Part shown: piece by piece, positions 3,603 through 34,063 of the stretch
How positions within the stretch are numbered: position 1 is the first letter of the stretch
How the letters are laid out: each line of letters starts with the position of its first letter
From: Amphiura filiformis
Taxonomy: Eukaryota > Echinodermata > Ophiuroidea > Amphilepidida > Amphiuridae
Direction of reading: 5' to 3'
Assembly: GCF_039555335.1 (NCBI RefSeq)
Contig: NC_092636.1
Coordinates: forward strand, 58,841,991 to 58,905,990
DNA length: 64,000 bases
Translations under genes and position numbers: made by a program
Notes under the pieces: model-generated
Told to the model about the DNA's origin: nothing
The model's input: only the letters and a program-made list of their open reading frames with translations
Database searches by the model: none

Positions 3603-4015
3603 TATCAATGGGCTGTTCCAGATAATAATCACCCCCCCCCCCTATAGAGGGCACCGGAATTCCATACTCTTTTTGTATGTACTTTGGTCCCCAAAACTCT
3701 TTACAGTCACATACTTCCAACCTATAGAGGGCGTCGGAATTCCAGACTTTTCCCCCCAAATGCGTTAGGAATTTTAGACCTTTTTCCCCCCCAATGCGTT
3801 AGGAATTCCACAATTTTTTACTCTTAATTTCTGAAAATCCATGCAAAGTCATATTCTCCAAACCATAGAGGGCGTCGGAATTCCAGACTTTTTCCCTAAA
3901 TCATTTTGGAATTCCAGACTATTTTCCCCAATGCGTTGGAATTCCAGATGTTTTACTGTTTTGACCAAAACACCTATAGAGGGCATTGGAATTCCAGAGT
4001 TTTTCCCTCATAATT
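3603..4015 (+). repeat. tandem array 'CTATAGAGGGC..GGAATTCCAGA', plus orientation
   Basis: Repeated units carry 'ctatagagggc' followed by 'ggaattccagact'. They begin after a leader 'gggctgttccagataata' at 3609 and a C-run at 3632-3642. The same leader and unit occur in reverse at 9200-9838. The shared flank shows that the array is part of one dispersed element and not two independent satellites. Confidence 0.75.
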
Positions 4016-4203
4016 TTCAGTTCCAGAAAAACTTAAAAGCCATATGTACGATTTCGTTCAAATTTTCATTATGTTATTCTTTTATACCCGAAATGCAGAA
4101 ATAATATTTTTAGGGTTTCTGTCCATCCATCATAAGCTTATAACAAGGTAAAGTGAAAGAAACCCCACTGGCTATTTTGGCCTTGGGTAAAACTAACAAT
4201 TCA

Positions 4204-4410
4204 ATGGAAATTTCAGACAGTGGCATAGCGGGGGGGGGGGGCAAATTAACTTGTAAAAGTATGTACCGACGAAAACGGTTTTGCTGACGGACGTTGTGGA
4301 TTGTTGCCCCAAATTATTTTTCGACGGTTTGAAAAAGTGAAGAGAAAAAAAAATACAGCTAGCAACCGAAAAACAACAAATTTTATGTATAATTCAATTT
4401 GTGTCACAAT
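4204..4410 (+). repeat. dispersed repeat (pair with 41168-41385)
   Basis: It starts 'agtggcatagcggggg', continues 'gttgccccaaattattttt' and 'cggtttgaaaaagtgaag', and ends 'caacaaattttatgtata'. The block order is matched at 41168-41385 ('gttgccccaattttttta', 'cgtttgaaaaagtgaag', 'caacacattttgatata'). It is a G-start element family with no coding potential seen. Confidence 0.65.
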
Positions 4411-5358
4411 TTCTATACATTTTTTTACAGTTTTTATCTTTCTTGTTTCACCACCATGCATGCATCAGGAGTAGGTCTGAAGTGCCAAAACTAAATCCCT
4501 GGATTAACATGATACCTCCCACATTTGACCTTTTCTAAATAGAAGTGGTTACAAATTCAAACTCACTGTCAATACTCTGTTATTTTCAAGTGTTTACCTA
4601 CATATACATGCATGCCATGTACACTGTATAGGGTATAAAGACTATGTACACAGTACACACAATTACATTTAAAATGGGAATTTTCATGTTGTTTAACATT
4701 TATTTTGGGCTAAAATGCTATACTGTAAAATTGAAAATGGCCCGGTAAACACAAAATTTCACCTTTTAGTTTTCCCGGTAGTTCTTAGCCTGCGTAGAAA
4801 ATAGCTGTACATGTATAAACATGTGCAATCCACAGTAATAACTACATGTGGATATTGCATGTGTGCAACTATTACTGTATTAGTGCTTTTTGGGGTTTGA
4901 AATACCCGCTATGTGCTTAGCCCTCCCGTTGAACCTGGCACGGGGTCAGAGGCTAATGGTATTTTCAGAGTTTTGACACTCAGGTAGCCATATTACCATG
5001 GTAACACACTAAATGAAATGTATAAAGTTCTCTACTTGTGTTAACTATGTATAAATGAAAGTAATTGTTGGGAGAAAAGAAAATATAGGCCTATTACATG
5101 TAGAAAAAAAAATTTAGTCAGTTCCAACTTGCATATAAAAATGTTGCTGTATTTTTCGGGGGTATTTGGGAGTAAGTGTTTTACTATTGAGGATAGTTCA
5201 ATGTCATGGGCACTCTGTCTGAGTCTGAAGAAATTAATTTCTATTTTAATATTATCTTGCCTGGACCTGATATCAAAATTATTCAGTAGGCCTACTATAG
5301 TGTATGTGCGAATTTCATATACATATTCTTTTGTCCAATTATCTTGTTATTACGCAGG
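4411..5358. other. non-coding, nothing recognised
   Basis: No supported gene or repeat. It contains only short random frames. Confidence 0.5.
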
Positions 5359-5359
5359 C

Positions 5360-5618
5360 CCGTAGCCACGATTATTTTAGGGGGGGGGGGGGTGCTGAAT
5401 TTTGAAAAAGTAGGCTTTTTTCCAAAAGGTGGTGCAATTTTGTGAAAAGTGGACTTTCTTCCCCAAATTTGGACCCTTTTTTTTGACCAAAAAAGCTTTA
5501 AAAATCCAATTGTTTTGGCTCGCTATATACGCTCGCAAATGCTTTAAATTTTGGGACTTTTTGTATACTTTTGCAGGTTCGGGGAGGGGGGGGGGGGGTG
5601 TTGCACTCGTGGCTACGG
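5360..5618. mobile_element. G-rich MITE with CCGTAGCCACGA terminal inverted repeats
   Basis: CCGTAGCCACGA at 5360-5371 is mirrored by TCGTGGCTACGG at 5607-5618. Each end is followed inward by a long G-run (5380-5392 and 5581-5598). The length of about 260 bp and the lack of a coding region fit a non-autonomous DNA transposon. The open frames on both strands are incidental. Confidence 0.65.
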
Positions 5619-6487
5619 TTCTGTTATTAAGGAACTGCAATCTTGTACATTTTTCTGTAACATTTTGTAAATAGGCCTATATAGCTTGTAAATCCACTTA
5701 GGACAAAAAAAAATTATTGTTGTGGACGTTGCCCTCAAGTGGGAAAATGGGAAAGTTGGGTCGGACGGTCAGATTTCTTCTTTTTTTTTCTTCTTTTTTT
5801 CAAACCTTCAGTTTTTTTTAAAATCCCCTCAAATATTAAATAATGCTTCTTCAATTAGGAAACATTTGTCAATTTTGACTTCTAAAAACCTGTTAGACAT
5901 CAATTAAAGACTAGTCTTTCAATAAAATATTAATTTTAAGTGAAAAACATTGATTTTTTGATAATCTCTCACAGAATGATTTTTTTTGTCTAAATTCACT
6001 ACCGTAACTTCTTATCCAGCTGACCTGACAATAGGTTCAATTTTAAAACAGTATATATTTCATTACTTCAGTAGATGAAAGGATTGACAGGAAAAAGGAA
6101 AAGAAGCCCTATTTCCAGATGGGAAGGGGCACTCGAATTTGGAAATGACAGGGATGTGCAGACACCAAGTTGACACTAGGTGTCTTTCAGTGAGAGAATT
6201 GACACCAAAAATAAAAGGGAGTCATTTGATGAAATCCCCCCCCCCGGTCATTCTTTGAGACTGCATGGGGAATATTTTACCCAAAAAGAGGCATGATAAA
6301 GTAGCCCCATTCCCTTTTTGGAAGACCTATTATGCAGCAAAAGACTTGTTTGGACAACCCCCACCCTGGGTTTTGCCCCTAAACCTATGAGGGTGTGAAA
6401 ACCAAACACCTGCATGATGATAGCTGATGATGCAGATTTCACAGTGAAAATTGCTTGTTTTTTATAGGGCACACAAGGACGCACACG
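5619..6487. other. non-coding, nothing firm
   Basis: AT-rich with a T-rich run at 5780-5820 and a C-run at 6236-6245. The part 6350-6487 may be a diverged extension of the dispersed repeat that follows. Confidence 0.4.
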
Positions 6488-6845
6488 CACACGACTAGTC
6501 CCAATGGGACATTTACTCCAGGTCACTACAGCTGATACTGGCTGCTTAAAAGTTCATAGTAGTATTTATTCCACAACTCATTTTTCAAGTAAACTACACA
6601 CAAACTGAATTCTATGACTGGAAACTTTATAATCCCATTTGCTTCATAATTGTTAAATTTATAAACAGCTATAAAGAAATGTAAATTACTTATTTACACT
6701 GTACACATTGACTATTTAGACAACATGTTCCAACTATATTGATGATATTTTAATACAAATCTTCAAAAATACAAAAATCAAATCAAGTTGAAGTTTACTG
6801 GCATTTCAATTAATATTGATGACATTTTGGATTCACTATTTAAAC
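6488..6845 (+). repeat. dispersed repeat, copy 2 (pair with 2324-2665)
   Basis: Second copy of the element described at 2324-2665, in the same orientation. It shares the block order from 'cccaatgggacatttactc' to 'ttttggattcacta', and internal differences include short insertions. Confidence 0.7.
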
Positions 6846-6888
6846 AGGGAAGTGCCATTTAAAGTCATAATGTACAATCTAATATGAA

Positions 6889-7060
6889 TTTGGTTAATTT
6901 TTTTTTAAAACCTGATTTTTTGGCATATTTGTAATGTTTACACATGTCACAACTTGCACCTAAATGGAATCAGCCAAATTTGTTGTGTTTGTAGGTAAAC
7001 AGAGCAAAAGTTCGACATAAAGTCATAATTCAAGAAATTATGACTTTATGTCCGCCCATA
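6889..7060 (+). repeat. dispersed repeat (pair with 46994-47150)
   Basis: Both places share 'aatgtttacacatgtcacaa'-like, 'cacctaaatggaatcag', 'gtgttt...aggtaaaca', 'cataaagtcataatt' and 'cccatagaac' blocks in the same order. A short inverted repeat (7015-7050, 'cataaagtcataattcaag' against its mirror) lies inside this copy. Confidence 0.65.
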
Positions 7061-7267
7061 GAACTGCGTGTTAAACGGTCAAAATAACAAGCAGTGTTTC
7101 TTTCACGTTACCTCGTTATTTCAGCTCAAAATGGACAGAAACCATTCCCGATCATTATTACTAGTATTATTTCAGCATTTTGAGTATATAATGACAAATT
7201 TTAAATTTGAAGGAAATCGTACATTAAGCCTTTACAGCTATATGATTAAGGAACACTTATAAATTGT

Positions 7268-7430
7268 TCGATAGATTGGAGATTACCAAATGGTGTCATA
7301 TTTAAAACAAATTATATAAGTCAAAATGACTTCCCATAAAACTGCACTGCATTTTGAATTTAACCACTTGAACCTGCAAAATTGCTCTATCTGTGGTAGA
7401 TGGCAAATAATACTTTCCATGTAGGCATTC
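7268..7430 (+). repeat. dispersed repeat (pair with 11690-11850)
   Basis: The shared blocks are 'aagtcaaaatgacttccca', 'aaccacttg(g)a', 'gtgcaaa/ctgcaaa', 'ctatctgt' and 'gtagatagcaaata'. This copy directly abuts the DIRS-like element that starts near 7434. Confidence 0.65.
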
Positions 7431-7433
7431 GCA

Positions 7434-7790
7434 ATGAAGAGATCCGACTTGGAGTGGCAGGGGTTTCTCTTTGGTGAGGCTTTTTGCGCCACGGTTGAGG
7501 ACCGGGCCGAGAAGGCAACCAAAGCGAGCACTCTGAAGAAGTCAGAGGCTGCCCTGACCAAGGGGAAGGGCAGCAAGACGAAGAAGAAACGCAATAAGTC
7601 CAAGTCTTCTGGTAAGCGTTCCTCTTCGTCGGCTCCGGCTTCAGCAGGTCGTGCACCACTGACTACACCGGAGCCCGAGGCTACCTCTGCAGCACCCAAA
7701 AGTCTGGGAAGCGCAAGAGCAGGATCATCAGACAAACCCCTCAAGAAGAGCAAGCGTTCTTCCAAGGGGAGCAAGTCAGATCGTTCCTGA
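7434..7790 (+). CDS. gag-like ORF of the DIRS-like element (118 aa, partial)
   Basis: Open frame of 118 residues from ATG 7434 to TGA 7788-7790. It starts MKRSDLEWQGFLFGEAF and then becomes highly basic and Ser-rich (repeated KK, SKSSGKRSSSS and KPLKKSKRSSKGSK). Such a basic, low-complexity tail fits the nucleic-acid-binding end of a retroelement structural protein. No zinc knuckle is present. The frame lies directly before the RT region, and the spacing suggests a small deletion at the junction (7790-7810). The assignment rests mostly on position, because the protein alone is not diagnostic. It is unlikely to be functional. Confidence 0.6.
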   Translation: MKRSDLEWQGFLFGEAFCATVEDRAEKATKASTLKKSEAALTKGKGSKTKKKRNKSKSSGKRSSSSAPASAGRAPLTTPEPEATSAAPKSLGSARAGSSDKPLKKSKRSSKGSKSDRS

Positions 7791-7797
7791 GGGTACG

Positions 7798-9033
7798 GTG
7801 GTCGACAGTCCATGCTGGCGGCAAGCCATCTCTCCGGGCGCCTGGGTATTGTCTGTAGTGAGCGGGGGTTACAGACTGGAGTTCACCAGTCCCCCCTCGT
7901 GCGCCTGCACGTTTCAGAGGTCCACAGTAGTGCCGTCAGACGGCCCCCAGCGTCGGGCACTACTATCGGAGGTCACTCAGCTTCTCACAAAGCGGGCGAT
8001 TGTCCCGTCTACCCCCCTTTCCCCAAGGGGTTTTGGAGCACATTCTTCTTGGCTCCAAAGAAGACCGGCGACTGGAGGCCCATATTGAACCTCAAGCCGT
8101 TGAACGAGTTCATCAGGCCCAAGAGGTTCAGAATGGAGACTCTCGCTTCGGTGCTAGCCTGTCCCATCAAGGGTATGTGGGCGGCATCGCTAGATCTTGG
8201 CATGGATGACGGTTCTGGGCCTTATGAGGCATATCCAACTGCACCTTCTCACCTTTTACAGGCCCAGTCATCACCCGATATCGTTCGCGGTTCCGATGTC
8301 GGAGATCGCGCGAGAGGAACTCTGGTGGTGGACCCATCAGCCCAATTTGACCGACGCGTCAAAGCTGGGCTGGAGGGCCACATCCACGGGGACACAGTCC
8401 CACATCAACCTTCTCGAGCTATGGGCAGTGGAGAGAACTCTCCAGCACTTCGAGGAGGTGATCGTGGGATCTCATATCGTTGTCCAGATGGACAACACAG
8501 CCGTGGTGCACGGTGGCCTACCTCAACAGACAAGGGGGCACCAGGTCACCTCGGTTGTGCCTGCATGCACTGCGCCTGATAGGGTGGTGCAAGTCCAGGC
8601 ATATTACGTTGAGAGCGATGCACATAGCGGGCGTCACCAACATCCTCGCGGACGATCTGTCACGAGGGAAGGTGTCGGGACCAACAGAATGGTCCCTTGC
8701 TCCGCAGGTCGTCCAGACGATCTTCGAGGTGATGTACCACCCCTCGATAGATATGTTCGCATTTCAGCGCAATCATCAACTGCCGGTGTACTGCTTGAGG
8801 GTCGCAGACCCACAGGCGTTCGCCGTGGACGCTCTGTCCGTAGACTGGGGAGGGATGACTTCATACGCTTTCCCCCGATCTCACTACTCACGAGGGTGGT
8901 GGCCAAGATCGGGAGGGAGGACTGCAACGTCGTTCTGATCGCGCTGTTCTGGCCGAAACACCTGTGGTTTTGTCCGATGGTGGATCTGCCGCGATTCCCC
9001 GAGTTACCAGATCTACTCCGGATGCCCAGATGA
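7798..9033 (+). pseudogene. RT-RNase H region of DIRS-like element, frameshifted and internally deleted
   Basis: Successive frames carry one family profile. The first frame reads GAWVLSVVSGGYRLEF (about 7830-7880) on to KRAIVPSTPLSP. Near 8030 the frame shifts to GFWSTFFLAPKKTGDWRPIL, then FRMETLASVLACPIKG and SLDLG (to about 8195). The YxDD catalytic core should follow but is absent. Homology resumes near 8220 with QLHLLTFYRPSHHPISFA. RNase H landmarks remain: TDASKLGW, INLLELWAVERTL and QMDNTAVV, with the D, E and D residues present. After another shift near 8510 come NRQGGTRSPRLCLHALRLI, ILADDLSRG and SVDWGGMTSYAF. A final shift near 8875 gives CNVVLIALFWPKHLWF and LPDLLRMPR. The block order is that of DIRS/Ngaro polyproteins. 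No complete enzyme is encoded. Confidence 0.85.
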
Positions 9034-9199
9034 GAGGTACCCAGTCATTAAACAAATAAATCTGCCAGCCAAAAATTGACTTGCCACCCACAACCTCCTC
9101 CCCCAGGGCTCATTATTACCATGCATAATGTACCATATCTGGAAGTTAAAATCTGGTGCACTAAATTCCACATTTCAAAGATCTTTTAACAATTTTCAT

Positions 9200-9838
9200 T
9201 GATGTCCTCTATCCCACCATTGGAATTCCAGACTTTTTATGGAAATACAAGTAAAAATTCCAGGATTTTTTAAACATTTCCATGGATGCCCTCTATAGGC
9301 CCCTCACTAGGCCTATACATGGAATTCCTGTTATTTTTTCACACATCGGGAAAAAATTCCATGATTATTCTGATTATTTCATGCATGCCCTCTATAGGGG
9401 TTTGATTGAATGCGCCTGGAATTTCATACTTTTTGCGGAGATTGGGTCTGGAATTCCAGATATTTTTTCAAAAAAAATGTTTGCCCTCTATAGGGGTCTG
9501 ATGGAATGCGCCTGGAATTCCATACTTTGCGGAGATTGGGTCTGGAATTCCAGATGTTTTTTCAAAAAAAGTTTGCCCTCTATAGGGGTTTGATGGAATG
9601 TGCCTGGAATTCCATACTTTTTGCAGAGATTGGGTCTGGAATTCCAGATATTTTTTCAAAAAAAAAGTTTGCCCTCTATAGTAGTTCTATGGAATACACC
9701 TGGAATTCCATATGTTTTTGCGGAGATTGGGTCCGAATTCCAGATGCTTTTTCCAAAACAAATTTGGAATTCCAGATTTTTTTCAAAAAAACATTTGCCC
9801 TCTATAGGGGGTCCTTTATTATCTGGAATAGCCCAATG
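9200..9838 (-). repeat. ~95-bp tandem array 'TTTGCCCTCTATAGGGG..', minus orientation
   Basis: The word TGCCCTCTATA begins at 9287, 9386, 9482, 9574, 9670 and 9796, so the unit is 92-99 bp with one longer spacing. Each unit also has 'ctggaattccagat', 'tttttcaaaaaa' and 'gagattgggtc'. The array ends at 9797-9838 in 'ttatctggaatagcccaatgg', the reverse complement of the leader at 3605-3628. The frames running through it (for example 9282-9593) are satellite translations. Confidence 0.85.
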
Positions 9839-10110: not shown

Positions 10111-10569
10111 AGCAAATTTTCGCTCAAATTTGAGGATTTGGGGCAGAAATGTGCCTGTGCAGTGCTATTTGGAAAATTTTCAAGTTGATAATTATGCATT
10201 TTTTATGTTAGATTCAGTTTCTACACAAAATTTCACCCTAGAAAATGTTCCTTTAGGATATCTTTCACTTTAAGTTTCCACCACTCTGTCTGATCTGCCA
10301 AACGTAAGTCAAAGCTTGAACGCTGTCATAAGTTGTCAGAGAGATTGGAGATTAAAATAAGGATATGATGTCACAGAAGTCATAATGTGACACAATCTGG
10401 TCCATAGGGGCTAAAGGCGGCAAATTTGAAACTGAGATAAAGGTAAAAATATGGAGTAAAAAACAATAACATGCATAAGAAAATAAACATCAAAATCGTC
10501 ATAACTTGAAAACCGAGTATGCTAGACCTTTGGTGTTTTCAGTAAATGATAGAGTACTGTATGTATATA

Positions 10570-11627
10570 CGAGGGTCATTCAAAAAGTTCTACCCATGGG
10601 TCATAACTTTTGTTTTGTTAAAGGTAGCTACTTGAACATTTGCATACATATAGTTCGTAATGTCACCCACAGGTGGTGAAAAAATATGTCAAAATCAGTT
10701 TCTGATTTTTTGTAGGTGACCTGAAAAACACAGTAAGATATGGTTCACCGGAAATGGTCAAAATATGTACAATATTTATAGAGGCGTCTCAAGTACAGTG
10801 TAAAAGATCCCATAATTATTGCATTTGGTCATGATATACTGTAAAAACTGTACAAAACATAAGAATAATCATACATTATTATATGTACTAGTTAAAAGGC
10901 TGCCACAAACTGAAAATGATGGGCATTAATATGCACAAAACTAATAGAACAAATAGCCAGTGTAATAAAATTAGTATAAATGACCACAAACCCAGTTTAT
11001 GAAGATATTGACTTTAATAAATCATGCTGTAAAATGGTGGCATTGTGTCGCTTTCTTTGGAATAAAATACCACAATAGATCACAAAGGGAATTAAATTTA
11101 CTTTTTTGACTGAAAATGTGTTATAGTAGCTTTAACTTTTGTATTTTATCTAATAGGGCAGTTAGAAAACTCACACTGTAGAGATGGACACTATGCTGAA
11201 GCTGATTATCATCATCTGAGATGTTACAAGATATCCCTCCACAAATTGGAATTCTGGGTAATTTCTGTCCATCAAAATTTAACTTTTTCAGTCACAGATG
11301 ATGTTTTGGACTGTAAGGTGTATATTCATTCAAAATTTATATTGTTACTAATATGATTTGTTTGTATAAGAGGGAAGTTCGTACATTGGCTGCACGCATG
11401 TTTTCAAGTTCAATATCCAAAGATGCATCACCGTTTCCGGTGTACCATATCTTACTGTGTTTTTCAGGTCACCAACAAAAATCTGAAAATTATCTTGACA
11501 TAATTTTTTCACCACCTGTAGAAGACAGGTACGTACTATATGTTTGCAAATTTTTAAGTACAATGTAGCTACTTTTAACAAAACAAAAGTTATGACCCAA
11601 CGGGTAGAACTTATTGAATGACCCTCG
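10570..11627. mobile_element. mariner-type non-autonomous element with ~200-bp terminal inverted repeats
   Basis: Left end CGAGGGTCATTCAAAAAGTT (10570) and right end ending GAATGACCCTCG (11627) are flanked by TA at 10568-10569 and 11628-11629, the Tc1/mariner target. Similarity between arms extends about 200 bp and includes 'gtcataacttttgttttgtt', 'caggtggtgaaaaaa' and 'gtgacctgaaaaacacagta'. No intact transposase is present. The element sits inside other dispersed sequence: 'gacacaatctggtccatagg' at 10391 and its mirror at 11680 flank it as an outer inverted pair. Confidence 0.85.
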
Positions 11628-11689
11628 TATTATGTAATAATTACAGTAAATCAATTTTCAAAAATGCCTCCTTTGCCCCCCATGGACCA

Positions 11690-11850: not shown

Positions 11851-11943
11851 TTCCGAATGTGCTACCAGGTAGAACCACACCCTACCCCATGTATGTATTT
11901 GTGAGTATAAAATATACAATGGTCAGGTGTCCAGTCTGTAGCA

Positions 11944-12114
11944 CAACGGCACGCCGTTGATCAACTGAGGGCAATATTTTTAGCAACGCCAGACCGTTGC
12001 AGTCAATAGATGGCATCATTTCTAGCAACGACAGACCGTTGCTAGCTTTTCAAGTATAGAGGGCTTATTTTTGTCAACGCTCGTCCGTTGCCCACTGACA
12101 ACGTTTGCCCGTTG
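11944..12114. repeat. left subterminal array: five CAACG-N6-CGTTG palindromes
   Basis: Five 16-bp units lie at 11944-11959, 11984-11999, 12026-12041, 12075-12090 and 12099-12114. Each is CAACG, five variable bases, then CCGTTG. The spacing between starts is 40, 42, 49 and 24 bp. The half-site CAACGG matches the Myb consensus YAACKG (known for that family). Only the half-sites are conserved between units, which points to selection or copying of a protein-binding site. Confidence 0.8.
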
Positions 12115-12865
12115 CCCGCTGAAAACGACTGCCTGTGCTGTGTGCACAGCGAGTCGCTATTGCGTGGTCGAGACAACAAAATGGAGGGTAAATTTTCCTC
12201 TCAAATATCAAAAAATAATTTGTTTTGATGCGAAATATTACTTATATATACTCCAAATAAATGATTGATTGTAAAAGTATGGCCTAACATATATTTTGGA
12301 AGATCGAACTAAAGGCTCGAAAAAAACTTTGATTCGCCGCAAATTTCGGTCAAGAAATTTCGTTATTTTCCACATATTGGGTCGTGGTCCAGAAAAAACA
12401 CAATATTTTCAGAAGTTTGATATGTTTTCTACTTAAAACAAATATTCAATTTGCAAGAAATATTTCCGCCCGGATAATAACAAGTAAAACATCTCTCAAC
12501 TGTCGAAGTAAAAATATCCGGGAAAAATATGGCATGTTTGAGAATACACGAGGAGACATGTTTATCAGGTCAGCAGAGGTCAACTTTTGCCAATACGTCA
12601 TGTCAATAACCGATTGTGATTGGTCTGTTGATGTACCTAGCTCATGAATATTCACAAATAAACAAACAACGAAGTAAAAAGTAAACAACTTATTTCCCTA
12701 CATACGAACTCTGAGCGAAATAAAAATTAATGTAGCCTACTGGTATGAATGGATTTATTAGATATTATGCAATTGGGGAACTTTCTGCGCCGTAAAACTA
12801 GCAGTTATGGTGCACGGCTACTTGCTAGCGTGCCCGGCTGGCTCAATTTATCTCGGACCAATTTA
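12115..12865. other. interior of large candidate transposon, no gene recognised
   Basis: AT-rich. 'acaaaatggagggtaaat' at 12174-12191 resembles a short start exon with a GT donor, but no protein signature follows. 'cgattgtgattggtct' near 12609 contains an inverted CCAAT box. Neither was strong enough to call. Confidence 0.35.
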
Positions 12866-12873
12866 AGCTTACC

Positions 12874-13196
12874 CCCGGGGGGGGGGCACTCACATGTTAA
12901 GGTGGTACGGGTATGTGCGGCGCTCAAGGGTCCCTTTTTCAGGCTCTCCGGCAGTTCCTTAAGCCCCACATTTGGATCTGCTCCAGTTCTTTGAGCCTCA
13001 AACTCTGACAATTGTAGTTCTTTAAGCTCAAATTTGGAAATAATTTAGAAATTTTTAGCTCAACAGCCTATAATTTGGCCCTAATTTCAGTTCTTCAAGC
13101 CCCTATTTTGCCCGAAAATCAGTTCTTAGTTCCCAAAGTTCGGCGCTCCGCGCCGCACACCCCTACCAAAATTTAAGTTGAGTGCCCCCCCCCGGG
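12874..13196. mobile_element. hAT-like MITE with 8-bp target duplication AGCTTACC
   Basis: The left terminus CCCGGGGGGGGGGCACTCA (12874) and right terminus TGAGTGCCCCCCCCCGGG (to 13196) are inverted. Exact AGCTTACC copies flank them at 12866-12873 and 13197-13204. Eight-base duplications are typical of hAT transposons. The interior repeats 'agttctttaagc' phrases and is GC-rich near both ends ('tgcggcgctc' and 'gcgccgcaca'). No coding region is present. Confidence 0.85.
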
Positions 13197-13204
13197 AGCT
13201 TACC

Positions 13205-14020
13205 ATGTGAATTGGTTGCCAGTTGTACTATCGAACTGCCGACCAAACTATCACAATATTTTCTAAAAGACATCCGAAATAATCATTTATTTATTTCCTC
13301 AATTGTTCAGAATTCCCAACATTGCTTTCGTCAATATTAATGGCTCGTGCTTTATATGGAAGTAATTATTTAAACTAAATTGTAGCCCCTAGTTTAAATC
13401 ATAATTGCACAGAAACAAATAAAAAAGATAGATGTTCATTCAGATTGAATACTACTTTTGCAGGGGCATGTCTTTGGACCGACACGTCGCTGGTTCGACA
13501 TGATGCTAGTCCAACTCGTCACTATTCCGAACATGAAATAAACATCTTTGGTCCGACACGTCCTAGACCGAATATGTAATGCAGTAAACTTCATTGTTTT
13601 GATACCTTCAACATGTAGTAGGCCTACATAATGAAAAACTCTGCCCTAGTCGTTTCGCACATTTGGACTTGCGAAGTGATGTTCAGATTGTATTTTTGGA
13701 CTTAAGGGATTACTTGTTTCAATGTTTTCGGATTGGTGAAGTGTTGGTCAATTTCACAGTTTTCCATTGTCGGACTAGCTCACCTAATTCAGTTTTCGAA
13801 CCTTTCATGTATTGGGAATTTTACCGTTCCGACAAACGCCTGGATTATGGACCCCAATAATTCCCTTTTTGGCCGATTCCAAATCAAATTATTAATGTAT
13901 TAATGATGCAACTACTTTGGTAATTATTATCATGAAACAGTCATACCATTTCTTGGGAGTGATTCAGTAGCCAGACATATTAAAGCGAAATAAAAATGAA
14001 GTAACATTAGTTATCAAAAG
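13205..14020. other. non-coding, small repeated motif only
   Basis: The phrase 'tttgg(a/t)ccgacacgtc' occurs at about 13473 and 13546 with nearby related 'ttcgaca' words, suggesting a decayed tandem repeat. Nothing else was recognised. Confidence 0.4.
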
Positions 14021-14021
14021 A

Positions 14022-14103
14022 GGACGCAGTGGGTAATCGAACCTGTGACGTCGGTATCACAAGTGCCGATCACTTCATAACCAAGACCATGGAGGCCGCA
14101 AGT
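14022..14103 (-). repeat. tRNA-Thr(UGU)-like SINE head, degenerate
   Basis: On the minus strand the order is a box A-like 'tggtcttggttatgaag', an anticodon arm CGGCA-CTTGTGA-TACCG (anticodon TGT, one mismatch in the stem), then box B-like 'aggttcgattacc'. The T-stem is imperfect and the acceptor ends pair poorly, so it is a tRNA-derived repeat and not a working tRNA. Confidence 0.45.
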
Positions 14104-14145
14104 GGACTGCCATTCTATCTATCAAACAAAGAGTTACGGAATTAA

Positions 14146-14404
14146 GGCGACAAAAAAAAGAAAACCTGTTCTACGGGCGGACGGACCTTTCAAGTAGGGT
14201 CGGTCGGGCTTTTTTTTTAAATGACCCATAAAATCACCAAAATCTGTAAATATTTGCAATTTGAGAAAATAAAAAAAAAAAAATTGTTCCTGAAATTGTC
14301 GAAATTTGAGCCGGTATTCATTTGTACAAGAAAATTTTTTTCCCAATTTGTTCAAAATCTTGGTCGGTCGGGCCCGTAGAACAGGTTTTTCTTTTTTCGT
14401 CACC
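14146..14404. mobile_element. MITE with ~40-bp terminal inverted repeats (GGCGACAAAA)
   Basis: 'ggcgacaaaaaaaagaaaac' at 14146 and 'cctgttctacgggc' are mirrored by 'gcccgtagaacaggttttt' and 'cttttttcgtcacc' ending at 14404. Inner 'ggtcggtcgggc' also appears in inverted form. Partly similar sequence near 16556-16760 and 18360-18440 suggests a family. Confidence 0.75.
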
Positions 14405-14961
14405 AAAGCGTGATATTATCGTTATCGTTAAATTCTCAACTTGGTCTGGGCTCATAAAACTCCCGGGCTGAATAGCCATACACGGTTACTTAATATTACT
14501 TAATAAATAGCCGTATAAGGCTACGGAAACATTTTTCGTTTAGAAATCATCTTTTATTAAAAAACAAGCACATCACAATTAATTTATTGTTGTTGCAAAA
14601 ACAGTTCTCACTTCTGAAAGTTTTATTTCTTTTATGTTCTAGCAATACATTTGAAGAATCAAATACTATTTTGAAGAGACAATTTATACAGTAGTTTCTT
14701 GAAACTCCGGGCTTGAAACCATTTACAAAAACTATAATGCATGCACTGGCAGATCCAGGAATTCAAGAAAAACATGCCAATTTATCAGAAGATTACTGGG
14801 CTGAGAGCTTGGATAAAATAATGTTTTTAAATAGCTGATCCTGGATCCACCACTACAATGGTAACAATTATGGCAAAATGTCATTTATAATTTTTCATAT
14901 CACCATGATCACTAGGAATAGGAATCTAAAACCAATTTTAATTGTAATTTAATAATGGGTG

Positions 14962-15873
14962 CACCTAGACAAAATTGGACACCAATGTTTTTGCTTGCTC
15001 GTGACTCTAAACCACCTGCTTGAACAACAAACATATATGCAAAAAGGTCAAAAAGAGAAGAGGGGGATTCTAATTTGCATAAAACAAAAATGGTTAAATG
15101 GCCACAAATGCAGGGCTCAAATTTCAAAATTGAAATATGGATAAAAAAAACCCCATCTAATTGTATTCTTCTCATTATTGGGATTCAGAAATCAGAAAAA
15201 GTATATGAATCATAATACATGCAGTTTGATCTATCTCCGATACAGTTCTTGAGTTGCAGGCATATGGTGAAATGTTAAATTTTGGTCCCAAATGCTCCTA
15301 TTGTGATCAGGTGGTCTCAAATTATTCCGCTGGGAAAAATATTTTAATTAAAGAATAGTTTGCCATATCTCATCAGGTGTTTTGTTATCGGTAACAGGGC
15401 AAATAAATCAAAACCCATTGACCTATTTTGTAATGTTACAAGTTACAGGTATAGGAAGCAAAACACCTGAGATGTGGCAAACTATTCTTTGTTTAAAATG
15501 TTCCAAGGATAATTTGACACCACTGTGATCAAAATCAAACATTTTTGATATTTTTACCCCTGTGGACAATGGTTGACATTTAAAACAATATGCCTCTAGT
15601 AAACCTTAAAACGTGTACATTAGAGATATGTCAAACTATTCTTTTTCTGAATCCCAATATTAATGAGAGGATATACATTGGTATATGTTCTAACCATGCT
15701 AACCAGAATCAAATAATTTTGAAATTTGAGCCCTGCATTTATTTATAGCAGCCACTGTTGTTTTATGCAAATTGGCATTATCCCCCTATTCCCATTTTTG
15801 GATATATTGTTGGGGATGTCTTTTAGAGATCATTACTGTAACAAAAAACATTGATTTCCAATTTTGTCTAGCT
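14962..15873. mobile_element. nested foldback element, ~0.9 kb
   Basis: 'ctagacaaaattgga' at 14964 is mirrored by 'tccaattttgtctag' near 15857-15871. Inner blocks such as 'gcagggctcaaatttcaaaa' (15111) and 'ttttgaaatttgagccctgc' (15718) pair, as do 'gggattcagaa' and 'ttctgaatccc'. A second inverted repeat lies inside: 'aaagaatagtttgcca' (15351) against 'ggcaaactattcttt' (15477), plus another partial copy at 15630. It looks like a composite foldback element. Confidence 0.75.
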
Positions 15874-16045
15874 CCAAACGTAAATTGACTCAAAAGTGGA
15901 GCAGAAGTAAAAATTGTTCAATCATTATGCAAGCAATTGATTTAAATAACAATACAATTTAATAATTACAACAAAAAAATTGAACAAATTTTAATCTTCA
16001 CCCAGAGCAGCCAGCGCACATCAATGTAAAAAACGTTGAAAAAAA

Positions 16046-16128
16046 TGCATCGGGGGGTCTGGCCTGATTAGAACTGGTGACCTTCAGATTACTAGCACGC
16101 ACGCTCTAGCCAATTAAGCCACAGATGC
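16046..16128 (-). repeat. tRNA-Thr(AGU)-like sequence, left arm
   Basis: Minus strand: acceptor GCATCTG, D arm GCTT...GAGC, anticodon loop CTAGTAA (anticodon AGT) and a box B-like 'agttctaat', closing with CCGATGC that pairs with the acceptor. The T-loop region is expanded by a C-run. It is not a functional tRNA. Confidence 0.6.
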
Positions 16129-16326
16129 ACACTGGAGAAGGGCGGAAGATTTAAATCTATATAAGTATTATGTTCAAATGATGTTCGTCGCATTCCTAGT
16201 GGAAGGAATCGGAACTGCAAAATTTAATATAAAATATGCAGTTCTGATGCATTAATATAAAATATGCAGTTCTAATGCCTTCCGCGACGAACATCATTCA
16301 ACCTAAGTTCCGCTCTTCTCCAGTGT

Positions 16327-16408
16327 GCCTCTGTGGCTCAATTAGCTAGGAGCCTAGAGCGTCATGCTAGTAATATGAAGGTCGCCGGTTCGAATCCAGC
16401 CACATGCA
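16327..16408 (+). repeat. tRNA-Thr(AGU)-like sequence, right arm
   Basis: Plus strand: box A 'tggctcaattagc', anticodon arm TCATG-CTAGTAA-TATGA (paired, anticodon AGT), box B GGTTCGAATCC, then CACATGC plus A. The D loop carries an extra copy of 'agctaggagcct' and the acceptor pairs poorly. The intact box B suggests the pol III promoter may still be recognisable. Confidence 0.65.
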
Positions 16409-16996
16409 CTGTTGGTTTGTTTTTTCAACATTTAGGTGCATTGGCTGCTCTGGGTAATGATTAAAATTTGTTCATCCAATCAACTCAGAGAACTAAGTAT
16501 ATAATTTTCAAAAATAAAGATTGTCTTGGCATTTTCAAAACTTGTGTTAGGGGATGAAAAAAAATCCCACAGACTTTTCAAGTAGGATCTTTTGGTCGTG
16601 ATTTTGTCCTTTTTTTTTCTTGGCAGCATTTTGATAATTGTTTGCAAACATATTTTAGAAAAAATTTTGTTAAAAAACGGCTGAATTTTACATGATTTAT
16701 TTTTTTAAATCTCCCAAAATGCTAAATCTGGATCGCTCGAGTCGGTCCTATGTATACAGGTTTTTTTTGCCTTCTCCTCAGAAAGTAACAGAAGTAGATT
16801 TTAAGAAAATGCTTAGTGATTTCAAGCTCGGTACCTGGCATTTTAAATCAAGCCACGGTGAAATAATTACAATCCATTGTATTCCTTAATTATCAAATCA
16901 AGATCGTGTAAATATGCAAATTTCGTTCCATTCACTCTGCAGGCTTCGGTTCAAGGAATGATATCCACAATCCAACAAGAAGACGATGCATCTTTT

Positions 16997-17380
16997 GTCC
17001 GAGATTTACATTGTACTTCTCTAGAATTACTTTTACCCACAGTTACCAGTGACAGTCCAATGATCATGATGATGATCCCAATTGCAATTCAGAGTTCTTT
17101 TTAATAATTTGTAGTTCCTCATTAACCACCGAAGTTCAGTCTTCATCTCGATCTCCGTCGTTTGCCTCTTCATCGTACAGTCTTTGTCAAATAGCGTCCG
17201 AGGTGTACATTGTACTTCCCTATAATTACTTTCGCCTACATTCGCAGTGACAGTCCAATGATCATGATGTTAATCCCAATTGCAATTCAGAGTTCTTTTT
17301 AATTTAATTTGTAGTTCCTCATTAACCGCTGAAGTTCAGTCTTCATCTCCGCCGCTTGCCTCTTCATCGTACAGTTTTTT
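16997..17380 (+). repeat. two-copy tandem repeat, 199-bp period
   Basis: 'gtccgag(a/g)t(t/g)tacattgtactt' starts at 16997 and again at 17196. Both copies continue 'cagtgacagtccaatgatca', 'cccaattgcaattcagagt' and 'gcctcttcatcgtacagt'. There is no coding signature. Confidence 0.8.
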
Positions 17381-17721
17381 GTGTTTTACGAGTTCTGTGA
17401 TTAAATCAAATGGAAAATAAAATAAAAAGATAATTATTTAACAAAGCTAGACATGCTGATCAATTAATCAAAACAATGATTTAATTATTGAATTTACACA
17501 TAAAATGCAAGATAGCTTCACAGTTTGACAACCCTTGATCTATTTTGAAATTAATGTTACACTATCACTAAGTATCAGACAGTCAAACTTGACATAGGGT
17601 CAAAGTTAAATAACGATCATACACAAAAAATATTTATGGCGAGTGGCGAATGTTTTACGGGCCCGACCAACCCAGATTTTGTGTTTCGGGAGAATTTTTT
17701 GTTTTTTTTAGCTCAGATACT

Positions 17722-18025
17722 CAGATAGCGACGTTTTATGTAATTTTTTGTGGGACATGAGAGCACATCGGACATATATCGAATTACATTTTGAAAACGA
17801 GGAATGTCCTTCTGATATCAAATATCAATCAATTGAAAATTTTGACCTTTCATATAGAAGATATAGATTTTTCCCCAAAAGATCTTTTCAAAAAACTAAA
17901 TTATTTGATATCAATATTATCACGATTCATCAGGAGCACATTCCTCGTTTTAAAATATGCAATTCGATATGTCTGATGTGCTCTCAGGTCACACACAAAA
18001 AAAAATGTGAAAAAGTCGCTATCCG
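17722..18025. mobile_element. foldback MITE (family of 45878-46511)
   Basis: 'cagatagcgac' at 17722 is mirrored by 'gtcgctatccg' at 18015-18025. The inner 'gagagcacatcggacatat' pairs with 'atatgtctgatgtgctctc'. Internal phrases 'ccttctgatatcaaat' and 'ttgaccttt.atat.gaagatat.gattttt' match the longer palindrome at 45878-46511. Confidence 0.75.
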
Positions 18026-19084
18026 AGCCCTTACGTTTTACTAAATCATGTAAAATCAGCCATTTTTGTTTTTGGCCAAAATGTTTTGATTTTGATTGAA
18101 TTTTTAAAAAATTCAGAATATTTTCACACAAAAAAATCCTGACCAAAAGTCTGCCCCCCCCGGCGTAAAACAGTGCTTTTATTCGTCGTCTAATCCTATA
18201 TAAAATATGTTTGATACATGGAGGATTGAAATTCAAGTAATTTAGTTTAATTTGCCGTCGGTGGTTCTTCAAATTCTGTTCCATATATTTCAGAGTGCAC
18301 ATTCCCAACCAAAGTTCCCCCTCGAGAATTCTATTGCTGTTATCAAAATTATGATGGGTGGGCCAAAAGAATGGATTGCCCTTAGAGCTCCAAAGTCAGG
18401 GTTGGTCGGTCGGTTTATTTTTTTCCTTACTTTCTTCTTTTCTTTTTTTTTACAATTTTAATATCAAGAAATGTAAGTTCACCTCAAAATACCATGGTAA
18501 ACAATAGTGTAAACAATTGAACTTCCAAACACGGAGGCATGCTTCAGCAAATCTGACTCTAGTTTTACATGTGAAGCCATCGCCGGTGAGCAAATTCGTG
18601 GCTACACTTCTCGAGCAAGGGGCACAGTGGCATAGTGTGGGTCATCAGTTGCGGCACTGACCACGATTGGGGGCACCGGGTCTGATTGGGGACACAAGCC
18701 GGTTTCTGGCATTTTTCCAATGGGATTTTTTAAAATAATTTTTCAATCAATTGGGGGGGGGGTACATACCCCCCATGCCACTGAAGGGGCAACTGGAGGC
18801 AAAAGAGCTCTGACGTGACTGGGGTAAATTTGCCCCATTCGTGGCACTGCCACTGTCTACGTATACAGTTGACATGCATTCCCATTCCATTATACCCCGG
18901 GTGTATACCAAGCGCGTGTACGCGTACTGACCATGCATGATCACATTCACAATATGACTATTTTCTAAAAACATATTTAAACAGGAACTAAGAGAGCATA
19001 CAATTACAAAACATGAAAGATATGATGGTGAACGTGATAATGGGCACTTGCACTTATCATATTATCATTATGAATTAGTTAAAA
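18026..19084. other. non-coding with fragments of G/C-run elements
   Basis: 'gttttactaaatcatgtaaaatcagcc' near 18035-18062 is the reverse of sequence near 16680-16710, and 'ggttggtcggtcgg' occurs at 18400. 18620-18790 holds G- and C-runs around 'ggcatagtg' and 'ccatgccactg', probably a decayed MITE. No gene was found. Confidence 0.4.
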
Positions 19085-19575
19085 TAGATCAGTAAGGGGG
19101 CTGGCATTTTCTTTGGAAGGGGGGGGTCCCAAATATGTCGGTGACCGGAGCCAATTTTTTTATGACCCCCCCTATCGCGGGCAAAATTTTTATGTAATGA
19201 CCCCCTATCGCTGGTCGAAAAATTTTATGACCCCCCTTCCAACTACACAGACTCAAGAAAAATTATTCATTGCCGGAACTAAGGCGCGGAGCGTCAAAAC
19301 TTAAAAGTGAAGAAAATGTGTGGAGCGCGGTAAATTGTTTATTGTAAGTGTAAAGAAGGCGCGCGGAGCGTGTAAAAATTTTGCATAGATTGTACGCACA
19401 TTTCGACTCATGGTTAAAGAATCAGCACAAGAAGCAAAAAATTTTAAGTCACCAGCCCTAAATAATTCTATAACCCCCTATTTTGGGTGTTAAAAAATTA
19501 TAACCCCCTATTTTTGGTCTGAAAATTCTATGACCCCCAGTATTTTGGGACCCCCCCCCGAAGAAAATTCCAGCC
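19085..19575. repeat. irregular array of 'aat(t)tttatgacccccta' units
   Basis: Units ending 'tatgacccccc(t)' recur at 19155, 19195 and 19225, and 'tataacccccta' at 19470, 19500 and 19535. G-runs at 19118 and C-runs at 19550 bracket them. The middle has 'gcgcggagcg' words. It looks like another low-complexity MITE interior. Confidence 0.55.
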
Positions 19576-19788
19576 CCTAAGCTTTAATTTGTCATGTTGT
19601 GTACATAACATACTGACATGACTGACAATGTGACATACACATGATACGTGTACATGTGAATGTCATGTATGAAAACATAGTGAAAGGTTGTCGAATTCTG
19701 CATATTGTCGTGCAACAATGTTCAAACTAAAAACGACAAACAGGTCAGCATGATCAGATTGTTTCAGCAATCTACGTTTATCACAGAC

Positions 19789-19900
19789 CAACGCCGTTCC
19801 GTTGATTTGTCAACGGACAGTCGTTGTTTACAACGCAATCACGTTGATAATTCTGGCAACAACGATACGGCGTTGATATGTGGTCAACGTGTACTCGTTG
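19789..19900. repeat. right inner array: five CAACG-N6-CGTTG palindromes
   Basis: Units at 19789-19804, 19811-19826, 19831-19846, 19860-19875 and 19885-19900 have the same 16-bp architecture as the left end array, with CGTTG kept and the base before it variable (C, T, A, G, T). Confidence 0.8.
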
Positions 19901-20157
19901 GTGGATGCAATTTTGTTGGAAAAAGCCAATTTCCCAAACGATTTACCTCCATGCAAAAATGATTTACCCAGCAATATTTTTGCGGAGTCATGCACATCGA
20001 ACATCATTTTAGTACAAAAATATTCCAACTCACCAAATTATTCCGGTAAAGCACCGTAATTGGCCCATGAAGTTGCCCGTTTCTGACCATAAACATGACA
20101 ATATCGTCGCCATTTTCATGATTATCTCGACTGTGGCAGGGTCGGAGTTGAAGTCGA

Positions 20158-20165
20158 TGACGTCA
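20158..20165. promoter_or_regulatory. CRE-like site TGACGTCA
   Basis: A perfect CREB/ATF palindrome in the right terminal region of the candidate transposon. On the minus strand an ATG context 'catgaaaatggcgacg' lies about 40 bp downstream, and 'ttggtgagtt' after 29 codons could be a splice donor. No function is shown. Confidence 0.3.
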
Positions 20166-20278
20166 TGTGATCGTTGGGCGGAAAAAGTAGTGTTGCCAGC
20201 ATTAAAATATGCATACAATTCCCTAATAGTGAGCACAAATTAGGAAAAAGAGAGCCCAAATCCGATTTCCCGAATTGG

Positions 20279-20341
20279 CAACGGGCAGCCGTTGTTGACA
20301 ACTGCCAGCCGTTGTATTTTACTGTAAACGGCTTGCCGTTG
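20279..20341. repeat. right terminal array: three CAACG-type palindromes
   Basis: Units at 20279-20294, 20299-20314 (CAACT variant) and 20326-20341 (AAACG variant). The last one overlaps the 27-bp terminal inverted repeat of the candidate 8.4-kb element. Confidence 0.75.
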
Positions 20342-20358
20342 TGCTACAGACTGGTGTC

Positions 20359-32608: not shown

Positions 32609-32932
32609 CGGCCGTATACCCTGCCTATCCCCTGCTAACTAGTGATCTGGACATATGCTGGACAGGGACTCAAATTCTCCCACTATAGGAAGAGGAATGT
32701 CAGTACTTGACGCTTTAATGTCTTTGTAGTTGTAGTAGGCCTACATACCTTCGGGGGGGGGGGCATTTTTGAATGCCGAGCCCTGACCATGTCTCGGCCC
32801 CATACAACATGGAATTTCTCCAATCGCTGTCCATCGACTTCCAACATGTGATTGTCTTGGTGCCTAGCAGGAAGTTGCAGAATTGCCTGGCTGTCCTGCC
32901 TACTGCCAATATGAACTTTTTATTTATCTCTA
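32609..32932. other. non-coding, nothing firm
   Basis: A G-run at 32754-32763. A 64-residue minus frame (32909-32715) has 'TITCWKSMDSDWRNSM' but no family that I can name. Confidence 0.35.
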
Positions 32933-34063
32933 GATAATTGTCTCAGGATGATGGATTATCTCAGAATAAGTGATTATCTCAGGATAATTGATTATCTCAA
33001 TTTATATTGCAAACAGGGACATTGACAGGACAGGACTTGAGATAATTGTTGAGATAATTTGAGAAAATACATTGTCTCAAGATGTTTTATCTGGAGATGA
33101 TAAATTATCTTGATAGTAAATAATAAATTATCTGGAGATCATTATCTTGAGATAATCAATTATCTTCAGATGATCAATTACCCTGAGATAATAAATTACC
33201 TTGAGACAATTATCTCAAGATAAATATATGGAAATAATAAATTATCTCAAGATAAATATCTCCATAATCTTTTTGTCCGGAGATAAATCCTGCGAAGATA
33301 AATATCTTGAGATAATAAATAATCTTGTCATGATAATAAATTATCTCGAAAAAATACATTATCTCAAGATGTTATTTATCTGGAGATCATAAATTATCTT
33401 GATAGTAAATTATCTTGATAATCTCTAGATGATTAATTTACCCTGAGATAATCAATTATCCTGAGATAATTATTCATTCTGAGATAATCCATTAACCTGA
33501 GACAATTATCTTTAGATAAATGGAAATAATGAATTACTGTATCTCAAGATAAATATCTCCATAAAAAACTTCTCTCTATATATCTTTTTGTCCAGAGATA
33601 AATATCTCATGATGATAAATTATCTTGAGATAATTGATAAGTCACTTTCGAAAAAATACATTATCTCTAAATCTTTTTTTATCTGTAGATTAATATGTTG
33701 AGATAATCTTGAGATAAATTATCTTGAAATAATAAGTTATAAGATGACTTATCTCAAAATAATTTATTATTTCAAGACTCTAATTTGTTATCTTATTTCT
33801 GCAACTAAGTGTCTCAAGAAATTATCTCGAGATAAGTTTTATTAATAAATCTCAAGATAACAAATTATCTCAAGAGAATACATCATCTCAAAACCTTTTT
33901 TCTGGAACTAATAAATTCTATAAAATAATCTCAAGATAAATATGTGGTGATGATAAATAGCTCTTATGATAAATTATCTCAATTTATATTTTTGAAGTTA
34001 AATATATGGAGATAATAGTAATACTGTCAAGATGATAATGTATTATCTCAACTTAATTGATCA
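32933..34063. repeat. AT-rich satellite of palindromic TTATCT/AGATAA words
   Basis: About 1.1 kb is built from 'aattatctcaagataat', 'gataattgattatct' and 'ttatcttgagataa' words. Adjacent words are inverted copies, so nearly every segment is a small palindrome. The core AGATAA equals the WGATAR site of GATA factors. The unit order is irregular, and no long period was apparent by eye. Confidence 0.9.

Follow-up and report, generated by a model that had tools for sequence, protein, structure and literature searches.

The segment between positions 11932 and 20353 of a 64-kb stretch of the ophiuroid Amphiura filiformis genome (RefSeq assembly GCF_039555335.1, contig NC_092636.1, positions 58,841,991 to 58,905,990; hereafter the window, whose internal coordinates are used throughout) is very probably a non-autonomous DNA transposon of the cut-and-paste type, inserted as a single unit of 8.4 kb. 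It represents a good, new case of an already known kind of mobile DNA, bounded by terminal inverted repeats (TIRs) and a short flanking duplication, and carrying in both ends, and nowhere else in the window, arrays of one gapped palindrome.

Termini and extent of the element

Read directly between 11500 and 20800, the window contains a 27-bp sequence at 11932-11958 that is identical at 26 of 27 positions to the reverse complement of 20327-20353, and GTGTC lies directly outside both copies. The element thus shows the TIRs and flanking target duplication that are the general trait of a cut-and-paste DNA transposon. With up to three mismatches allowed, these two sites are the only matches in the whole window to the first 18 bp of the TIR (0.01 expected), and at the same tolerance there is no inner TIR with which either end could form a short element of its own. 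We also searched the whole window for pairs of 16-bp TIRs with at most one mismatch, 5 bp of matching flank and a distance of 60-12000 bp, omitting low-complexity ends and using 20 order-2 Markov sequences as control. Four pairs were recovered in the window and none in the 20 control sequences, and only the pair at 11932-20353 was free of mismatches across the 16 bp. The first-pass annotation, which had proposed inverted termini of 27 bp with one mismatch and GTGTC outside both, is confirmed in these respects, and its proposal of one large TIR element with palindrome arrays at its ends is supported by the TIRs, the flanks, the arrays and the pair search together. The features of the two ends are the following.

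11927-11931, plus strand: left copy of the target duplication, GTGTC (TGT at 11928-11930 in the 3-bp reading discussed below)
11932-11958, plus strand: left TIR, starting with CAGTCTGTAGC and holding the first palindrome minus its final base
11944-12114, plus strand: left array, five exact palindromes starting at 11944, 11984, 12026, 12075 and 12099
19789-19900, minus strand: right inner array, five exact palindromes at 19789, 19811, 19831, 19860 and 19885
20279-20341, minus strand: right outer array, one exact palindrome (20279) and two one-mismatch copies (20299, 20326)
20327-20353, minus strand: right TIR, 26/27 identical to the left TIR
20354-20358, plus strand: right copy of the target duplication, GTGTC

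The base composition also changes at these borders. The observed/expected ratio of CpG reaches 0.87 across the element, compared with 0.35 and 0.40 for its 2-kb flanks. Among 150-bp windows, those on and within the left border have ratios of 0.74-1.83 and the left flank window 0.18; within the right border the range is 0.80-1.79, and two windows of the right flank have 0.00. The core of about 5.4 kb that remains when six nested units are removed has a ratio of 0.94.

Palindrome arrays in both ends

The palindrome CAACG-N6-CGTTG has 11 exact copies in the 64 kb, every one of them inside the two ends of the element: five at 11944-12114, five at 19789-19900 and one at 20279-20294, all at most 183 bp from the left tip or 565 bp from the right tip. 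The same half-sites with spacers of 0-5 or 7-15 bases have no copy in the window, and only three copies with one mismatch exist, two in the right end (20299 and 20326) and one outside the element (62494). In 20 order-1 Markov resamplings, the mean was 0 for exact palindromes and 0.95 for copies with at most one mismatch. In a survey of gapped palindromes with 5-base half-sites of at least three different letters and spacers of 0-12, 817 classes occurred; among the 25 commonest, CAACG-N6-CGTTG lies furthest above expectation (11 vs 0.019), while by count it ties for first place with TGGAA-0-TTCCA (11 copies each, 0.180 expected for the latter).

Both ends have their first palindrome centred at 20.0 bp from the tip, with one mismatch in the copy on the right. 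The right end holds two arrays, with centres at 20-67 bp and 461-557 bp, so the two ends mirror each other no further than the first palindrome. The same 16-bp palindrome arrays had been described just inside both ends by the first-pass annotation; their presence holds, with this correction on the layout of the right end. The spacing on the right side is irregular (22, 20, 29 and 25 bp in the inner array, 20 and 27 bp in the outer one). The half-sites CAACG/CGTTG and their 6-bp spacing are constant, with half-site centres 11 bp apart, whereas the six middle bases differ across all 11 exact copies (two copies differ by one base). This combination of constant half-sites and variable middle fits a protein that binds two half-sites better than the copying of one repeat. 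The palindromes are likely to be where a transposase supplied in trans binds.

In the mechanism that we infer, the transposase would be a DDE/D enzyme that is produced at another place in the genome and occupies the palindromes as a dimer, with one subunit per CAACG half-site; since the half-site centres are separated by about one helical turn, both subunits would sit on one face of the DNA. At each tip, the palindrome centred at 20 bp would place the catalytic domain over the terminal CAGTCTGTAGC, the additional copies would raise the local concentration of transposase and help to pair both ends, and a staggered joining would leave the 5-bp GTGTC duplication. A first palindrome at 20 bp from both tips, with the remainder placed differently, is what would be expected from selection by a dimer recognising half-sites. 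Comparable arrangements are described in parts of the literature on Ac, whose transposase binds subterminal AAACGG hexamers that Ac requires (PMC3260210), and on Hermes, whose BED domains bind subterminal repeats, one pair of which is quasi-palindromic (PMC10368747). Neither parallel shows 11932-20353 to be a hAT element.

The paired-palindrome pattern was also searched for in other collections. It was found in eight stretches of seven viral contigs, with no TIR-like sequence within the 10 flanking bases on each side, and in 98 stretches of prokaryote genome contigs, the 80 listed ones all being bacterial by title. One viral match (L009) to the TIR-plus-palindrome core was rejected as chance, since its CAGTCT lies seven bases further out and its palindrome is the only one in 5.5 kb, without a TIR copy.

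Interior of the element

The interior (12141-20320), searched against Pfam in six frames with stops read as X, gave no family at cut-off, in agreement with the earlier statement that there is no recognised transposase. The best match, Baculo_VP91_N (E 0.003; 17.7 bits vs a cut-off of 24), lies on the minus strand at about 17.85-18.15 kb, overlaps an AT-rich nested unit and was taken as chance, as were the matches to CHDCT2 (E 0.44) and DUF7470 (E 0.081). Six inverted-repeat units and a few short motifs are found in this interior.

12178-12186, plus strand: AAAATGGAG, inside the left end
12874-13196: short inverted-repeat element with the 8-bp duplication AGCTTACC at 12866-12873 and 13197-13204
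14146-14404: inverted-repeat unit, no clean duplication seen
14960-15876: inverted-repeat unit, TA at 14966-14967 and 15869-15870 inside the inverted repeat
15981-16474: long palindromic unit with 68.5% identity between the sequence and its reverse complement, lacking a clean duplication
17720-18027: palindromic unit, pieces of which recur near 45.9, 46.1-46.5 and 56.9 kb
19097-19577: inverted-repeat unit GGGGCTGG...CCAGCCCC, TAAG on both flanks
20108-20116, minus strand: AAAATGGCG, inside the right end
20158-20165, right end: TGACGTCA, found at two places in the window including this one

Clear duplications flank two of these units, 12874-13196 (AGCTTACC) and 19097-19577 (TAAG), which marks at least two of the nested units as clean, later insertions. 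At 14960-15876, the TA sits in the self-complementary CTAG of the inverted repeat and is therefore no proof of duplication. The first-pass annotation had counted at least five smaller elements: six structures are indeed present, but insertion is clearly evidenced for only two of them. It had also concluded that the element is old, which our results do not support, because ends that differ at 1 of 27 positions and an undepleted CpG content (0.87) make an inference of great age weak.

The sequences at 12178-12186 and 20108-20116 are ones that we speculatively take to be YY1-like; such sites occur four times in the window, two of them in the element. The sequence TGACGTCA is, as a similar speculation, presumably CRE-like. 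Close to it and to the right YY1-like site there is a short minus-strand open reading frame (ORF; 20030-20239), followed on the minus strand by GTGAGT, and 20030-20239 could possibly be the relic first exon of an element gene.

Alternative explanations

Several observations weigh against reading 11932-20353 as one non-autonomous transposon with ends shaped by protein binding. The element is known from one copy, within the 64-kb window. No trace of a transposase, including a hAT dimerization domain, reaches the Pfam cut-off in 12141-20320. Three of the left palindromes lie within partly conserved 40-bp units (100, 83 and 60% identity with the reference copy), and duplication may thus account for some of the left copies. 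The TIR pattern is unmatched in the collections of viral and prokaryote sequences; an animal-type element would not be expected there. The ends themselves can be read differently, as 28-bp TIRs CCAG...CTGG with the 3-bp duplication TGT. Regarding CpG, the ratio of the core falls from 0.94 to 0.86 once the palindromes are left out, 1-kb windows with ratios of at least 0.79 also occur outside the element (e.g. at 7-9, 22-24 and 30-32 kb, and further at 41, 43-46, 50-53 and 57 kb), and the nested unit 14960-15876 has a ratio of 0.20; because CpG-rich stretches exist elsewhere and one nested unit is CpG-poor, we use the shift at the borders as weak supporting evidence.

The two ends could in principle belong to separate short elements of the same family, inserted in opposite orientation 8 kb apart and sharing GTGTC by chance. 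The abundance of other short inverted-repeat units in the interior indicates that short elements are common here, but each of the two would require an inner TIR, which is lacking at up to three mismatches in 18 bp, a 5-bp chance match has a probability of about 1 in 1000, and CpG shifts at the outer borders, with the core free of the six nested units at 0.94; this explanation is very unlikely. A macro-transposition, in which the outer ends of two nearby elements once moved the DNA between them, would make the interior captured host DNA and no part of a transposon family. It agrees with the lack of a recognised element gene there, and the right inner array (19789-19900) may be what is left of the end of another element, but the same missing inner TIR argues against it and we regard it as decidedly unlikely. 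It is somewhat unlikely that the element was formerly autonomous and that its transposase decayed beyond recognition, instead of having been born non-autonomous. The core of about 5.4 kb outside the nested units is large enough for this, and the YY1-like sequences inside both ends (two of the four in the window) and the donor-like GTGAGT after the short minus-strand ORF of the right end could, speculatively, be read in its favour. In contrast, TIRs identical at 26 of 27 positions and undepleted CpG oppose great age, yet no Pfam family reaches the cut-off.

The length of the duplication bears on the family. Since GTGTC begins and ends with complementary bases, one base at each end can be counted with the TIR instead, leaving a 3-bp duplication. 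Therefore, while the GTGTC match underlying the 5-bp duplication of the first-pass annotation is exact, its length is not certain, as the TGT reading also fits. It is rather unlikely that the element represents a family that makes 3-bp duplications and has CCAG...CTGG termini, which would not be hAT5: the complementarity of the first and last bases of GTGTC favours this reading, but it requires two extra chance flank matches (1 in 16), whereas the 5-bp reading requires one chance complementarity (1 in 4). By this count of coincidences, we infer a preference for 5 bp over 3 bp of about 4 to 1, not more.

Relationship to known transposons

The transposase is most likely, albeit tentatively and with less than even confidence, a hAT enzyme of the group with 5-bp duplications (hAT5). 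This is the best-fitting name among the groups checked, and it does not by itself establish superfamily membership. In the preferred 5-bp reading, the length of the target duplication would agree with hAT5, and hAT elements such as Ac and Hermes also carry TIRs and subterminal transposase-binding repeats; no transposase domain was found in 12141-20320, in contrast to hAT5. The general terminal form of hAT elements is YARNG, which the CAGTC termini of the element fail at the fifth base. The target duplications of Ac/Ds and of Hermes are both 8 bp long. A hAT transposase with its dimerization domain was not found, as expected if the element is a non-autonomous member. The suggestion in the first-pass annotation that the element is hAT-related is possible: a hAT group with 5-bp duplications, hAT5, is documented (Kapitonov and Jurka 2007, Repbase Reports, as cited in a passage of PMC12730594), but no hAT domain was found and the duplication may be read as 3 bp.

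As far as the passages on maize Ac/Ds go, the resemblance lies in multiple subterminal AAACGG copies less than 200 bp from the ends, to which the CAACGG/CCGTTG half-sites look similar, and in non-autonomous copies with interiors unlike Ac. In contrast, the TIRs of Ac/Ds are 11 bp long, and those passages do not mention a fixed-spacing palindromic pairing of the motif. Similarly, the passages on Hermes present BED-bound subterminal repeats with a quasi-palindromic pair near the tip, but the motif is AAGT and only the STR1-STR2 pair is termed quasi-palindromic there.

Other groups were considered and rejected. The P superfamily (PMC7776569) and, according to a passage of PMC12730594, KDZ (Zisupton) have 8-bp target duplications, and the flank match here is 5 bp, not 8; IS3EU usually has 6-bp duplications and TA..TA termini (PMC10045372), and neither fits. 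The duplications of RAG-like elements are almost always 5 bp, and the first three TIR bases are CAC, in the relevant part of PMC7204232. Given the CAC start of RAG-like and Transib elements, the 8-bp duplications of P and Zisupton and the mostly 6-bp ones of IS3EU, the element falls outside these groups. That it is a non-autonomous RAG-like or Transib element is extremely unlikely. Besides the 5-bp duplication of the preferred reading, a 15-base stretch across the left border (TCCAGTCTGTAGCAC) also occurs in a laboratory 12RSS oligonucleotide in parts of PMC5520896 and PMC12682277. However, the tip is CAG (CCA in the 3-bp reading), not the CAC of the PMC7204232 passage, no RAG domain reaches the Pfam cut-off, and the oligonucleotide match spans the spacer and only three heptamer bases. 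Because this match lies away from the cleavage border and came from a text search across millions of papers, we take it as chance. In the literature, seven papers match the first 11 TIR bases in their text; by title none is on transposons, three concern RAG, and in PMC5520896 and PMC12682277 the match is the 12RSS oligonucleotide. A further paper among the matches listed, PMC7481187, deals with YY1 and ProtoRAG. None of the titles and abstract starts among the matches listed describes this layout.

A second unit with the same layout

The TIR-pair search of the window recovered a second large unit, 3611-9833 (6223 bp), 2.1 kb to the left of the element. Its ends are GGCTGTTCCAGATAAT, with one mismatch, and its flanks CAATG (or AAT with GGG...CCC). 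All 16 window copies of the palindrome GGAATTCC lie in its ends, seven at 3656-3995 and nine at 9222-9773. The two units are alike in having a TIR, a flank match of 5 (or 3) bp, a length of several kb and one palindrome confined to the ends; they differ in the TIR (GGCTGTTCCAGATAAT) and in the palindrome (GGAATTCC, without spacer). The layout thus recurs in the window with another palindrome and is not unique to 11932-20353.

The sequence TATAGAGGGC has 11 copies in the window, nine in 3611-9833 and one in the left array of 11932-20353 (12055); CTCF-like is a candidate label for it. The wider form YAGRKGGC, a candidate of the same kind, has 20 sites in the window, 11 of them in 3611-9833, vs 5-12 in 10 resamplings. 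The interior of 3611-9833, searched at 4050-9000, is free of Pfam matches up to E 0.1. ORFs at 7425-9030 have a sub-cut-off match to RT_RNaseH (E 0.033) and look, by eye, like pieces of a reverse-transcriptase element, presumably DIRS-like; 8194-9030 has no PDB match up to E 1.

Other features of the window

Just left of the element, a unit of about 1.07 kb (10566-11631) starts with TATACGAGGGTCATTC and carries inverted arms that are 86% identical over about 200 bp. The fourth pair of the TIR search, 1709-1891, spans 183 bp between TGGGACAGCTTCCTGG and its inverted copy (one mismatch), with TGTCA on both flanks. Rfam gives a single match at gathering score across the window, a tRNA-Met (CAT) at 43001-43073, and a cluster of TTATC/GATAA palindromes at 32924-34034 is probably a simple repeat of GATA type.

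Implications

It is highly improbable, albeit conceivable, that 3611-9833 and 11932-20353 belong to one undescribed superfamily, in which the transposases would read family-specific palindromes arrayed in both ends while the layout stays constant. If the reading of 11932-20353 as one such transposon is true, its likely transposase-binding sites can be read by eye, as a fixed-spacing palindrome in both ends, and end recognition would be testable by a DNA-binding assay once an autonomous partner is found. That two units of this kind, each with its own palindrome, lie within 17 kb suggests that palindrome arrays may mark transposon ends in this genome more commonly than single examples show.

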